From contig NZ_JACSMA010000001.1 of assembly GCF_018618415.1 (NCBI RefSeq), positions 62,001-126,000 of the forward strand: a stretch of 64,000 nucleotides of DNA. The letters run 5' to 3'. A model generated the notes under the pieces. It had not been told where the DNA came from and did not search any database. It worked only from the letters and a program-made list of their open reading frames with translations. Positions 2,639 to 47,231 of this stretch are shown piece after piece; the first letter of the stretch is position 1, and every line of letters begins with the position of its first letter. Made by a program: the position numbers and the translations under genes. Origin of the DNA: Exiguobacterium sp. s146. GTDB lineage: Bacteria > Bacillota > Bacilli > Exiguobacteriales > Exiguobacteriaceae.

Positions 2639-2667
2639 GTGGTCGTAGACGACCGAATTTCATAATG

Positions 2668-2762
2668 TTTACCACTAGGGGAGTCGCGTGACGCGGCTGA
2701 GATGGACGAGGTCCAGACCCTTTGAACCTGATCTAGTTCACGCTAGCGTAGGGAAGTGGGCG
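2668..2762 (+). ncRNA. TPP riboswitch (THI element)
   Basis: The conserved THI-box blocks are readable in order: the P2/P3 entry around 2676-2683 (AGGGGAGT), the pyrimidine-sensor block CTGAGATGG at 2697-2705, ACCCTTTGAACCTGATCTAG at 2717-2736, and the closing GCGTAGGGAAGTGG ending at 2759. Thiamine pyrophosphate binding is expected to favour the intrinsic terminator that follows and so shut off tenA-thiM-thiD-thiE. Confidence 0.95.
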
Positions 2763-2795
2763 AACCGATTGTTCTCGTACACTTTGTGTAAATCC

Positions 2796-43033: not shown

Positions 43034-44749
43034 GTGAAACGACTGCAAGCTCTTGCTTTAGCAGAAAAACGTCATATCATCGGACTCGTCGTCGCGGCAG
43101 TGATGATCGGGTTATCGATTTTGGCGCAAGCTTATTTAATTGTCGACATTGTCGATCAAGTTTTCTTAAAAAATGCATCGTTTGAAAGCATCGTTCCGAC
43201 GCTCGGTTGGCTCATCCTCGCGCTCATTACACGAGCGGGTTTCGGCTACATGTCGGGGAGGATTGGAGCGAGCCTGTCAGAGAAAGCGAAACGGTCACTC
43301 CGACTGCAATTGCTCGACCGCTATACGTCGAACCCGATTGAGACGTCACTATCCGGACAATCCGGGAAAAAGGTGAGCGTGTTCATGGACGCAGTCGACG
43401 AGGTCGATGCCTACTTCAGCCAATATTGGCCGCAAGTCATTCAAACATCGGTTATTCCGCTCCTCATTCTCGTCGTCGTCTTCAGCCAACATTGGATCTC
43501 GGGCGTCATCATGATGGTGACGGCTCCGTTCATCCCAATCTTTTTCATCATCATCGGGATTGCGACCCAGAAGAAGTCGGAACAACAGATGGAGAAAATG
43601 AATCAGTTCTCCGGCAAGTTTTTGGATGTGTTGCAAGGACTGACAACACTCAAACTATACGGTCGGACCGAGCGCGAGGCACAAGCGATCGAAAAGAGCA
43701 GTCTCGATTTCCGTGACGCGACGATGGTCGTCTTGAAGACGGCGTTCTTATCGGGTCTCATGCTCGAATTCATCTCGATGCTCAGTACGGGCGTCGTCGC
43801 CCTCGAAGTGGCGCTCCAAATGGTCGTCTGGGAGAACTTGACGTTCTTCTCTGGCTTTTTGATTCTCGTCTTGGCCCCGGAATACTATTTGGCGATTAAA
43901 GACCTCGGTGGTGCGTTCCACACCGGACGCGGCAGCATGGGAGCAGCCGATCGCATCTTTGAGGCGCTCGACGCACCGGATGAACGTTTGACATGGGGCG
44001 ACCGGCCATTGACGAGCCAGACCCCTGACCTCGAGCTCGACGCCGTCTCGTTCGCCTATGAAGGCGGACGTTTCACGTTGCATCCCTTGAGTGGCGTGAT
44101 TTCCGCTGGTGCCCATGTGGCGCTCGTCGGGGCGAGCGGGTCTGGAAAGACGACCGTTTTGAACGTGTTGTCCGGACTCGTCAAACCGGACAGTGGACGT
44201 GTCCTCGTCGACGGGGAGCCACTCGCGACGTACACGGATTCGTCATGGTATGACACAATCGGGTACATCTCACAAAATCCGTATCTGTTCGCCGGTACCG
44301 TTGCCGATAATATCGCCCTCGGGGAAGCGGCCGACGAGGCAAACATCCTCAAAGCCGCGAACGCGGCCGGACTGAACGATGTCATCGCGCAATTGCCGAA
44401 CGGCGTTCATACCGAGCTCGGTGAAGGCGGTTATGGATTGTCCGGGGGCGAACGACAACGGCTCGCCTTGGCCCGTGCCTTCTTCAAACGCCCGGGCATC
44501 ATCTTGTTCGATGAACCGACGACAGGTCTCGATTTAGTAACGGAGCAAATCGTTCGACGCTCGATTGAGGAGTTGTCGCGCGAGGCGACGCTCGTCACGG
44601 TCGCGCATCGGTTGCATACAATCAAGCAGGCGGATGCGATTTGGTTCATGGATGATGGAAAACTCCTCGCCCAAGGCACGCATGACGAACTGCTCGACGT
44701 TCCGCAATACGCTGACTTGTTCACGCTACAGAAAGGGGTGAGAGGATGA
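43034..44749 (+). CDS. cydD: Thiol reductant ABC exporter subunit CydD
   Basis: 571 residues: six-helix exporter domain (1-310) and ATPase (330-565) with Walker A GASGSGKTT, signature LSGGERQR and Walker B IILFDEPTTGLD. With CydC it exports cysteine/glutathione and is needed to assemble cytochrome bd. I start at GTG 43034, ten bases after AAAGGA; the ATG at 43025 touches the site. cydA and cydB are not in this window. Confidence 0.92.
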   Translation: MKRLQALALAEKRHIIGLVVAAVMIGLSILAQAYLIVDIVDQVFLKNASFESIVPTLGWLILALITRAGFGYMSGRIGASLSEKAKRSLRLQLLDRYTSNPIETSLSGQSGKKVSVFMDAVDEVDAYFSQYWPQVIQTSVIPLLILVVVFSQHWISGVIMMVTAPFIPIFFIIIGIATQKKSEQQMEKMNQFSGKFLDVLQGLTTLKLYGRTEREAQAIEKSSLDFRDATMVVLKTAFLSGLMLEFISMLSTGVVALEVALQMVVWENLTFFSGFLILVLAPEYYLAIKDLGGAFHTGRGSMGAADRIFEALDAPDERLTWGDRPLTSQTPDLELDAVSFAYEGGRFTLHPLSGVISAGAHVALVGASGSGKTTVLNVLSGLVKPDSGRVLVDGEPLATYTDSSWYDTIGYISQNPYLFAGTVADNIALGEAADEANILKAANAAGLNDVIAQLPNGVHTELGEGGYGLSGGERQRLALARAFFKRPGIILFDEPTTGLDLVTEQIVRRSIEELSREATLVTVAHRLHTIKQADAIWFMDDGKLLAQGTHDELLDVPQYADLFTLQKGVRG

Positions 44750-46461
44750 ACTCACTTTGGACGATCACGAAATGGATGATGCGCGAGAAGAAAGATATCA
44801 TCCTCTCGATCTTCTTTGGGTACGTGGCTGGGATCGCGGCCGTCGCCTTGTTCGCGGCGAGCGGCTATCTCGTCTCACGGGCCGGTCTCGTGCCGCCGCT
44901 CTACGCGCTCATGGTGCCTGTCGTCTTGATTAAATTGTTCGGTGTGATTCGGGCGAGTGCGCGTTATCAAGAGCGCCTTGCCTCGCACCGGGCGACGTTC
45001 ACGATTTTGAGCGAGTTGCGAGTGCGGTTTTATCGCCAGCTCGAACCGCTCGTGCCGAGCATCTTTGCCAAGTATCGCAGTGGGGATTTGCTCGCTCGTG
45101 TCGTCGGTGACGTCGAGAGCCTGCAAAACTACTTTTTACGGGTATTCTATCCGCCGATTATCTTGGTGCTCGTCTTCTTGAGCACGATTTTCTTCGTCAC
45201 GTACTTCTCGATGTGGGTCAGCCTCTGGATATTGTTCGGTGTGTTCGTGACCGGCTTCTTGATTCCGGCGTTCTTCGCCCGAATCCGTGCCAAACACGAC
45301 CGCGAGTTGCGTGCTTTACGGGGTGACTTGTCGAGCGGAATGACAGAGATGATGTACGGCTATCGCGATCTATTGCTCCATCATCAGCTCGGACGGACGC
45401 GCGATGAGTTGCTCGAACAGAGCGACCTTTACGCCGAAGCCCAGAAGCGGGATGTGACGAATCAATTTTTCAACTCGTCACTTGTTGTGGCGGCGTCGCT
45501 GCTCGTCTCGTGGGGCGTTCTCGCCATCGGAGCGTATCTCGTCGTCGACGGCGAATTGAACGGTCTATTTTTGGCGATGCTCATCATGATGTCGCTCACC
45601 GCGTTTGAGAACGCGACACCGATGGCGGTCTTCCCGGGCCACTTTGCCGACAGCAAACAAGCGGCAGGCCGACTGCTCGAAGTCGTCGAGCCGAGTGAAG
45701 CAATCGTCGCGGCCGAGACCGCGCGCACGGACATAGCGCTCGCGTCAGCGCCGGACGTCGTGTTCGAGCGTGTGACCTATCGCTACCCGGATACGTACCG
45801 CGACGTTTTGAGCGACGTGGATGTGACGTTACGAAGCGGGACGAAGACGGTCATCGTCGGGCCGAGCGGTTCTGGGAAATCGACGCTTCTGCAACTGTTG
45901 CTCGCTTTCGTCAGACCCGATGCCGGTGAAATCCGATTGGATGGACAGCGGTTGGACGATGTGACCCAAGCATCGGTTTGGCGGGAAGCCAGCGTCGTCT
46001 TGCAGGAGAATCACTTCTTCTTCGGGACGGTGCGGGAGAACTTGGCGCTCGCCGGAGAGTTCACCGATGCTGACATGGAAGTTGCGCTCGCGAGCGTCCG
46101 GCTCGGCTTCTCGCTCGATGAACCGGTCCTCGAGAAAGGGGCGAACTTGTCGGGCGGGGAACGGCAACGGCTCGCCATCGCCCGGGCGCTCCTGAAGAAT
46201 GGGGTGCTCTGGATTCTCGATGAAGCGACATCGGCCCTCGACGCTCGGACTGAAGCGGACGTGTTCGCTGAAATCTTCCGTCAAGCCGATGAGGCGACGC
46301 TCGTCATGGTCAGCCATCGCCTGAACGGGCTCGAACGCTTCGATCACATCATCGTCATGGAAGGCGGCCGCGTCGTGGAGACCGGAACGTATGATGAATT
46401 GATGCGGTCCCGTGGCGTCTTCTATGGATTGAAACAAATCGAGCAAGATATTTTCGCATGA
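44746..46461 (+). CDS. cydC: Thiol reductant ABC exporter subunit CydC
   Basis: 571 residues, partner of CydD: exporter membrane domain and ATPase with GPSGSGKST, LSGGERQRLAIARALL and WILDEATSALD. ATGA overlap with cydD. Its stop is directly followed by a terminator shared with the candidate small RNA from the other strand. Confidence 0.92.
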   Translation: MNSLWTITKWMMREKKDIILSIFFGYVAGIAAVALFAASGYLVSRAGLVPPLYALMVPVVLIKLFGVIRASARYQERLASHRATFTILSELRVRFYRQLEPLVPSIFAKYRSGDLLARVVGDVESLQNYFLRVFYPPIILVLVFLSTIFFVTYFSMWVSLWILFGVFVTGFLIPAFFARIRAKHDRELRALRGDLSSGMTEMMYGYRDLLLHHQLGRTRDELLEQSDLYAEAQKRDVTNQFFNSSLVVAASLLVSWGVLAIGAYLVVDGELNGLFLAMLIMMSLTAFENATPMAVFPGHFADSKQAAGRLLEVVEPSEAIVAAETARTDIALASAPDVVFERVTYRYPDTYRDVLSDVDVTLRSGTKTVIVGPSGSGKSTLLQLLLAFVRPDAGEIRLDGQRLDDVTQASVWREASVVLQENHFFFGTVRENLALAGEFTDADMEVALASVRLGFSLDEPVLEKGANLSGGERQRLAIARALLKNGVLWILDEATSALDARTEADVFAEIFRQADEATLVMVSHRLNGLERFDHIIVMEGGRVVETGTYDELMRSRGVFYGLKQIEQDIFA

Positions 46462-46622
46462 AAAAACGAGCGGCTCCGTCGGAGAGCCGCTCGTTTTCTT
46501 ATTGGCAAATTTGGGTGCAACAAATGGGGGTTGTCGCATTGCTTTCAAAAAGAGTGTCGTGGAGGGGAATCCACGTGACGTAATGGTTTGGGGAACGGTT
46601 ACGTCAAGCTTTTGGGAGCTAC
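46461..46622 (-). ncRNA. Candidate Fur-regulated small RNA with three C-rich loops
   Basis: An isolated transcription unit on the minus strand of about 160 nt. It starts near 46622 from a strong promoter covered by a Fur box and ends in the terminator beside cydC. It has no plausible coding frame. In order from the 5' end: hairpin 1, stem TGACGTAA/TTACGTCA (46606-46599, 46583-46576), loop with TTCCCC; hairpin 2, stem CGTGGA/TCCACG (46575-46570, 46563-46558), loop TTCCCC; hairpin 3, stem GCGACAA/TTGTTGC (46537-46531, 46523-46517), loop with CCCCC; then the terminator. Three unpaired C runs match the style of Fur-controlled FsrA (B. subtilis) and IsrR (S. aureus), which pair with ribosome binding sites of iron-protein mRNAs. 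Identity as a functional analogue is inference. Confidence 0.72.
46465..46498. terminator. Bidirectional terminator of cydC and the small RNA
   Basis: Perfect 12-bp stem AACGAGCGGCTC / GAGCCGCTCGTT with T4 on the + strand and T6 on the minus strand. Confidence 0.93.
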
Positions 46623-46628
46623 ATCTAG

Positions 46629-46658
46629 AGTATAAGTGATAACGATTCTCATTGTCAA
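46629..46658 (-). promoter_or_regulatory. Strong promoter overlapped by a Fur box
   Basis: Minus strand TTGACA (46658-46653) and TATACT (46634-46629) are 18 bp apart. GATAACGATTCTCATTGTC at 46638-46656 matches the Fur consensus GATAATGATAATCATTATC at 15 of 19 positions and fills the spacer. Confidence 0.78.
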
Positions 46659-46671
46659 TTAGAAAATGATA

Positions 46672-46700
46672 CAAAAAACCGCAACCAATTCAGGTTGCGG
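46672..46700 (-). terminator. Terminator of the 174-aa membrane protein gene
   Basis: CCGCAACC / GGTTGCGG with six T on the minus strand, isolating the small RNA promoter from upstream transcription. Confidence 0.9.
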
Positions 46701-46706
46701 TCGGTG

Positions 46707-47231
46707 TCAGCTTGACGTCACGCCTTTACGGAACGTGAAGCGAATCAGGCTGAACAAATAGCGGATATAGAACAGCGCGAACGCATAAAATACAGCGATG
46801 GCGGATGCGCCGAGTTCAACACCTGGAATGTTCATCAAGAACTCGAGGATGAGAATCGACAGCAAGAAGATGTAGAGGCCGGCGTCGAGATAAAGCGGCA
46901 TCAATTTGCCGCGCTGATGCCAGAACGTCCGGACGAGCGGTGCGACAATCATCCCTATGATGCGTTCCGCGAACCCAATGCTCAGTACGGAAATCATGAA
47001 CGCGGCGACCGTCTCGAACGAGACGAGCTCTGAGAATGCGAACATGGAGATGAGCAAGAGCGGGCCGATGAAAATCATCATCGAGAGTGACGTGCGTAAA
47101 AAGATAAACAAGTTCCGTTTCATCGTGTCGACTCCCCCGAAGAGCGACTGGCGGAACGTCTTGCCACGTTGATAGTCGAGGATGAACGATCCCACAAACA
47201 TCAAACCGAATAGTGATAACAATACTGTCAT
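46707..47231 (-). CDS. Integral membrane protein of unknown function
   Basis: 174 residues with about four to five hydrophobic helices (2-18, 42-66, 72-96, 116-135, 138-160) and basic loops such as DYQRGKTFRQ. AAAGGGGAAAC lies upstream of ATG 47231. I do not recognise the family. The C-terminal RFTFRKGVTSS is cytoplasmic by the positive-inside rule. Confidence 0.65.
   Translation of the reverse strand: MTVLLSLFGLMFVGSFILDYQRGKTFRQSLFGGVDTMKRNLFIFLRTSLSMMIFIGPLLLISMFAFSELVSFETVAAFMISVLSIGFAERIIGMIVAPLVRTFWHQRGKLMPLYLDAGLYIFLLSILILEFLMNIPGVELGASAIAVFYAFALFYIRYLFSLIRFTFRKGVTSS

Follow-up and report, generated by a model that had tools for sequence, protein, structure and literature searches.

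A predicted Fur-controlled small RNA with three C-rich hairpin loops beside cydC in Exiguobacterium

The region between cydC and a membrane-type gene of Exiguobacterium sp. s146 raises the question of what is transcribed there and what the product does. We studied it within a 64-kb stretch of the genome (the window). An earlier inspection of the letters (the sequence-only reading) had proposed a stand-alone small RNA under Fur control that spares iron. The locus was compared in 19 genomes of a genus-level group, g1, which includes the window's own genome, and in 19 genomes of a sister group, g2.

Layout of the unit and its Fur-type box

The features of the locus are as follows.
44746–46461, plus strand: cydC, the convergent neighbour (TIGR02868, 408.6 bits against a cut-off of 329)
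46461–46622, minus strand: predicted small RNA of about 162 nt, its start placed by promoter spacing; found in 19/19 g1 genomes
46461–46497, minus strand: intrinsic terminator with a 14-bp stem and a U tract; 4 pairs changed on both sides
46504–46517, minus strand: CACCCAAAUUUGCC on the 3′ side of hairpin 3, with its C run unpaired; altered in the most divergent sequence (L019)
46516–46538, minus strand: hairpin 3 with the loop CCCCCAU; 99.3% of cells paired, almost invariant
46558–46575, minus strand: hairpin 2 with the loop UUCCCC, followed by ACACUCUUUUU (terminator-like); 6 pairs constant in 18 sequences
46576–46606, minus strand: hairpin 1 with the apical loop CCCCA within the invariant GUUCCCCAAAC; 5 pairs changed on both sides
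46607–46620, minus strand: small 5′ hairpin AGCT-CCCAAA-AGCT, from the fold
46629–46634, minus strand: −10 element TATACT, after an 18-nt spacer, read from the sequence; in 19/19 g1 genomes
46637–46651, minus strand: Fur-type box TGAGAATCGTTATCA, a 15-bp core within the promoter spacer; 2 mismatches to TGATAATGATTATCA on the other strand and 3 on the minus strand
46653–46658, minus strand: −35 element TTGACA, read from the sequence; in 19/19 g1 genomes
46673–46700, minus strand: terminator of the upstream neighbour gene, from the sequence and a pattern scan
46710–47231, minus strand: upstream neighbour gene for a 174-aa protein, membrane-type by eye

The TTGACA-N18-TATACT promoter of the sequence-only reading was read directly at 46658–46653 and 46634–46629, and a pattern scan recovered it with 11 matches out of 12 (a mean of 0.4 in shuffles). 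The unit is bounded by two terminators, as had been claimed: that of the neighbour (46700–46673) lies upstream, and its own, whose 14-bp stem at 46497–46461 shows two-sided changes in 4 pairs, forms the 3′ end. The pattern scan listed two terminator-like sites, namely the neighbour's terminator and hairpin 2; the 14-bp stem was absent from this list and was visible in the fold. Hairpin 2 together with ACACUCUUUUU (46575–46547) scored as terminator-like, and a short form of the RNA, about 70–75 nt long and ending at this site, is possible judging from the sequence. The neighbour gene had been called unrelated, and its protein had no match in Pfam or NCBIfam. However, its position beside a Fur-type promoter matters in both groups, as described below.

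The box in the spacer had been given as 15/19. This count was reproduced on the plus strand, and the minus strand matched at 16/19 positions (46656–46638) of the 19-bp consensus. No other site in the 64-kb window scored at least 15/19, and the two readings that did are both strands of the one site. The box was kept with at most one change in 19/19 g1 genomes. Throughout its own genome, nine distinct sites had no more than two mismatches to TGATAATGATTATCA when three adjacent sites were taken as one, and the box of the small RNA was among them. Four of the other eight are at genes whose products have FecCD, Peripla_BP_2 or solute-binding domains. One more is at an ABC ATPase gene beside a gene that appears reductase-like by eye and another at an E1-E2 ATPase gene, and two are chance-like sites near infC-like and carrier-like genes (both named by eye). 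The box of the small RNA thus fits with an uptake set of iron type. Three Fur-family proteins and an hfq gene were found in the same genome. The putative box overlaps the promoter, and control of the small RNA promoter by Fur is well supported at the level of the sequence. Elsewhere in this genome (contig C2, near 688753–688773; L246), a Fur-like box is followed by a frame of about 30 codons, seen by eye, and then by a terminator-like hairpin; the frame possibly encodes a small Fur-controlled protein.

Conserved structure and distribution of the RNA

The RNA at 46623–46460 folded with −57.4 kcal/mol, compared with −27.75 ± 3.39 kcal/mol for 200 shuffled sequences (z = −8.75), none of which was as stable. 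A large share of this stability must come from the terminator. The number of C-bearing loops is a separate signal: three hairpin loops with CCCC were observed, and among 3000 dinucleotide shuffles 2403 had none, 555 had one, 42 had two and none had three. In the ensemble, the unpaired fraction of the C runs in these loops was about 90% or higher. Two shorter runs accompany them, CCC in the 5′ hairpin (46620–46607) and CACCC at 46517–46513, and the terminator loop, UCCGACG, is without CCCC. The sequence-only reading had described three perfect or near-perfect hairpins with CCCC, CCCC and CCCCC in their loops. The loops were confirmed, but hairpin 1 is imperfect: an internal loop separates its 8-bp stem from a weak apical stem of 3 bp.

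The small RNA region was present in all 19 g1 genomes with the neighbour gene adjoining it, and cydC lay on the other side in 18. In the nineteenth (G012), the terminator of the small RNA is interrupted by an insertion sequence that carries a frame of 286 aa (transposase-like by eye), with 1469 nt between the terminator arms (L250:389-404 and 1874-1889). This insertion offers a natural experiment on the importance of 3′ end formation. The −35 and −10 elements and GUUCCCCAAAC were intact in every g1 genome, G012 included. Relatives that lacked both the loops and the Fur box would have spoken against the sequence-only reading; both were retained in 19/19 g1 genomes.

The covariation analysis used 18 sequences, with G012 omitted because of its insertion. 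The named structure was paired in 97.9% of the cells, and nine pairs, five in hairpin 1 and four in the terminator, had changed on both sides. The covariation score was 0.136, compared with 0.076 in shuffled alignments and at most 0.041 with slid partners. Of five measures of covariation, one fell below its shuffles: the count of further pair types (13 against 15.2). The consensus structure from RNAalifold had 41 pairs, seven of them with two-sided changes, and exchanged the small 5′ hairpin for a helix that encloses hairpins 1 and 2. Hairpin 2 is constant and hairpin 3 nearly so; covariation is therefore no test of their pairing, and what they show is fixed sequence.

The absence of a coding frame, claimed earlier, held in the alignment, where no reading frame was common to all 18 sequences. 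A TTG-started frame over hairpin 3 was open in 17 of the 18 because the DNA is nearly invariant. It had variable ends, mostly running into the terminator without a stop, and was broken after five codons in L006. Thus, at the level of sequence, the predicted transcript is non-coding, has its own terminator and is conserved as RNA.

A covariance model of the window RNA (R1) found all 19 g1 genomes, and in a search of 398 genomes of the class only g1 gave strong matches. At E ≤ 1, R1 gave weak hits in 18/19 g2 genomes. The best of these (G033, E = 7.7e-4) was considered as the sister cydC locus and rejected, as it read as a terminator and tblastn found no cydC there. At E ≤ 0.01, weak hits were obtained in nine genomes outside the family and in two g2 genomes (G026 and G034). 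Those in G050 and G283 were full length, those in G073, G086, G088 and G319 covered the terminator part only, and those in G168, G349 and G137 proved on reading to be A/T-rich or plain terminators without C loops. A scan of 84,980 species genomes for the sequence of hairpins 2 and 3, with a strict pattern built from g1, returned 14 contigs, all of Exiguobacterium: E. aurantiacum, E. aestuarii, E. profundum, E. alkaliphilum, E. chiriqhucha, E. qingdaonense, E. algae and unnamed strains. In the genomes searched, the window RNA therefore appears to be confined to one of two Exiguobacterium groups.

At gathering scores, Rfam returned nothing in the whole window but a TPP riboswitch (2667–2771, plus strand; 85.6 bits). 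At the locus itself, five hits were obtained at E ≤ 10, all below the cut-off, and none was FsrA, for which Rfam presumably contains a family model. Among the literature matches listed, in a search whose scope excluded preprints and most subscription papers, no report of an Exiguobacterium C-loop RNA was found. One comparative paper places E. profundum in Clade IIb, which is saline, and compares the numbers of sRNAs between the Exiguobacterium clades; the whole word "iron" was not found in its main text (PMC10837837). From this placement, g1 would correspond to Clade II, and g2 to Clade I or a group near it.

Ribosome binding sites as candidate targets

Pairing between the C regions of the RNA and start regions (−30 to +12) was scored with the costs of opening both sides, using a simple custom script rather than IntaRNA. 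This scoring replaced a first duplex ranking, which was dropped because it allowed stems of the RNA to pair. The background consisted of 61 window genes with roughly assigned starts and had a median of −2.1 and a best score of −8.97. Three genes for iron enzymes exceeded this best score: sdhC (−10.13), acnA (−9.61) and qcrA (−9.36). sdhA, named by its N-terminus only, and qcrB were weaker than the best window gene (−8.64 and −8.08), and genes for Nfu-like (−7.19) and NifS-like (−6.93) proteins and cytochrome c551 (−5.77) fell inside the range of the window genes. acnA was picked through its family, independently of its Shine-Dalgarno (SD) sequence, and is a fair test; qcrA, qcrB, sdhC and others were met through the pattern GGGGAAY before ATG itself. 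The start region of the 174-aa neighbour gene scored −7.02 in the same procedure.

The pattern GGGGAAY before ATG occurred at 157 sites in the window's genome, compared with 29 for the reversed pattern. From 85 of the 157 sites, 61 candidate starts were obtained, a number that includes alternative starts of the same gene. Among these, sdhC ranked 13th and qcrA 19th. The top of the list was occupied by an arginase-family gene, two genes without a name (one of them represented by two starts), a MoxR-type ATPase gene and an aldehyde dehydrogenase gene; the arginase-family (−13.02) and aldehyde dehydrogenase (−11.98) genes paired better than sdhC. Target prediction aimed at iron-sulfur and heme genes, as the sequence-only reading had envisaged, thus had a divided outcome: acnA, sdhC and qcrA surpassed 61/61 background genes, but iron genes were not singled out. 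The modelled scores speak for SD pairing and agree with iron targets, without proving a preference for them. Iron-enzyme targets are plausible but not specific, since non-iron genes pair better in the model.

The SD sequences of g1 and g2 were compared. That of qcrA is GGGGGAAC in 19/19 g1 genomes, and that of sdhC is likewise in 18/19, while both are GGGGGGAT in g2 (11/11 loci for each), a change that fits the UUCCCC seeds. However, sdhA runs in the opposite direction, with GGGGAAC in 10/11 g2 loci and GGGGGAAA or GGGGGAAT in g1, and GGGGAAY SDs are equally common genome-wide in g1 and in g2, which is without the window RNA. Co-evolution of the SDs was therefore discounted as evidence. The qcrA match of one genome (G013; L186) contained one TAA inside the aligned stretch.

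These data bear on three other explanations of the locus. The RNA could be Fur-controlled and C-rich and yet act mainly on non-iron genes, so that many mRNAs with GGGGGAA-type SDs, for amino-acid and carbon catabolism and transport, would be slowed broadly on loss of iron. The seeds suit a generic SD, and the best scores, such as that of the arginase family, belong to genes that are not known as iron genes. However, none of the 61 background genes scored as well as acnA, whose choice did not depend on its SD, or as the leading genes of the sdh and qcr clusters, and by analogy control by iron favours iron targets. We consider this explanation unlikely. It is still more improbable that the C loops serve as a sponge or titration device, with a second RNA or a protein as their partner instead of the ribosome sites of mRNAs. 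Such a role would account for the invariance of hairpin 2 and the near-invariance of hairpin 3, which include the stems and exceed the needs of SD pairing, but in the Gram-positive examples consulted, unpaired C-rich or UCCC motifs are mRNA-pairing sites, and the analogy argues for the same role here. We give hardly any credence to the view that there is no functional RNA and that terminators in conserved DNA between convergent genes mimic an RNA gene: the palindrome of the RNA terminator (46461–46497) also sits 3′ of cydC on the plus strand, where a terminator is expected, but promoter, box and loops were kept and stems covaried although CydC has diverged to about 75% identity.

We therefore regard the window RNA as probably a Fur-repressed, C-rich, SD-pairing RNA that spares iron, with targets such as acnA, sdhCA and qcrAB. 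The unit, its box, its conservation and its covariation can be read from the genomes, and the following mechanism is predicted from them. In the presence of iron, Fur-iron would repress the stand-alone small RNA gene. When iron falls, Fur would come off the box within the promoter spacer, allowing the RNA of about 162 nt to be made. Its three stable hairpins would present UUCCCC, UUCCCC and CCCCC as ready seeds, which would pair with the G-rich SDs (GGGGGAA type) of the acnA, sdhCA and qcrAB mRNAs and block their translation. With iron-enzyme translation blocked, scarce iron would be spared.

The sister group and known C-rich RNAs

The best matches of g2 to the locus were 28–38 bp long and covered little beyond the promoter. 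For each of the 19 g2 genomes, a 2.1-kb region surrounding one such site was read (L051-L069). In 18/19, the start codon of a nitroreductase-family gene (Pfam PF00881, 114.9 bits in the one sequence tested) lay 51–52 nt from the first base of the −35 element. In the remaining genome (G024; L051:1052-1355), a related nitroreductase started 304 nt from the −35 element, behind a long leader. No nitroreductase was found in the window or in the g1 loci examined. On its own, the near-identity of this promoter to that of the window RNA carries little weight, as these genomes contain other Fur-type promoters of similar appearance. However, all 19 g2 genomes have, upstream of the promoter and in the same orientation, a relative of the window's neighbour gene (31–36% identity, E = 1e-29 to 1e-18), within about 120 nt in 18 and about 575 nt away in G024. 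Because neighbour and orientation are shared, the Fur promoters of g1 and g2 are likely to be orthologous, as judged from these gene arrangements.

A 3′UTR element of 111–120 nt, ending in a terminator, follows the nitroreductase gene in all 19 g2 genomes. It consists of a hairpin with a UACCCC loop, AAGCCCCA and the terminator, whose apical loop carries CCCCAAA in 18 genomes; the terminator of G024 contains CCCUCCCCCC instead. The C runs are kept and the stems change: 14 pairs had two-sided changes, and 92.2% of the cells were paired in an alignment of 16 distinct rows with imperfectly aligned terminator arms. The covariation score was 0.351, compared with 0.171 in shuffles and at most 0.113 with slid partners; further pair types (23) were no more numerous than in shuffles (22.2). 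A model of 18 of these sequences (R2) found 19/19 g2 genomes, including G024 (E = 8.1e-9), which was outside the model. At E ≤ 0.05, under the stricter filters of large searches, it found none of the 19 g1 genomes, and elsewhere in the class it matched five genomes (E = 0.003–0.035). In the three of 19 loci that were scanned, Rfam gave no match to the element at E ≤ 1, LhrC included. The g2 RNA scored −11.31, −10.69 and −9.84 against sdhC, qcrA and sdhA of one g2 genome (G029), with a background best of −9.7; these scores are rough because the background came from the g1 window.

The two groups may perhaps carry two forms of one Fur locus: a stand-alone iron-sparing RNA with three C loops in g1, and in g2 a nitroreductase mRNA with an iron-sparing 3′UTR of LhrC layout, which would be processed out or act in place. 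We hold this reading to be somewhat less likely than not. The forms share the neighbour and the kind of promoter, have three C sites each and are mutually exclusive in 38 genomes. With filters off, R1 on the 19 g2 loci and R2 on the 19 g1 loci yielded nothing beyond weak hits, which fell on both strands and for the most part near terminators, so common descent of the two RNAs is not supported by these models. C-rich seeds arose in several Gram-positive RNAs, and convergence is therefore possible. An SdhC tree of 30 rows separates g1 from g2 cleanly; having no outgroup, it cannot tell which form of the locus is older. The proposal of an iron-sparing sRNA of this lineage thus fits g1, but in g2 a different C-rich element follows what seems to be the same Fur promoter. 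If the two-form reading is true, a 3′UTR RNA and a free-standing RNA would interchange by the loss or gain of a reading frame between promoter and RNA. Since one culturable genus has, behind apparently one promoter, both a Fur RNA that stands alone and a Fur mRNA whose 3′UTR is C-rich, the origin of such RNAs is directly testable. Two RNA elements without an Rfam match are added (for g2, from three loci scanned).

The layout of the g2 element is that of LhrC1-5 of Listeria, in which UCCC motifs lie in loop A, a single strand and the terminator loop, as described in PMC8079631. LhrC RNAs are stand-alone, whereas the g2 element lies within the 3′UTR of an mRNA, and the C motif in the terminator loop of LhrC1-5 is absent from the window RNA (loop UCCGACG). 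To our knowledge, the LhrC RNAs are not known to be Fur-controlled.

RyhB and PrrF share the logic of a Fur-repressed RNA that spares iron; they were compared with the window RNA in sequence by the Rfam scan only. RyhB acts with Hfq and is not known to be C-loop based.

By analogy, the window RNA would work like IsrR and FsrA, a likeness of action and not necessarily of descent. PMC9410917 describes iron-sparing RNAs of different bacteria as having common targets without sequence homology, and aconitase as a target of all those discussed there. IsrR of staphylococci has two Fur boxes and a C-rich region, CRR2, outside a loop, whereas the window RNA has a single box and carries three of its C runs in loops; the two were compared by description. 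FsrA of Bacillus subtilis is 84 nt long, independent of Hfq and partly supported by FbpABC, whereas the window RNA is predicted to be about 162 nt long in a genome that has hfq. FsrA is, as we propose for the window RNA, Fur-repressed and binds SDs through a C-rich motif (PMC12871923, PMC9410917), and its targets include sdhCAB and aconitase (PMC12871923), the counterparts of the sdh and acnA candidates found here.
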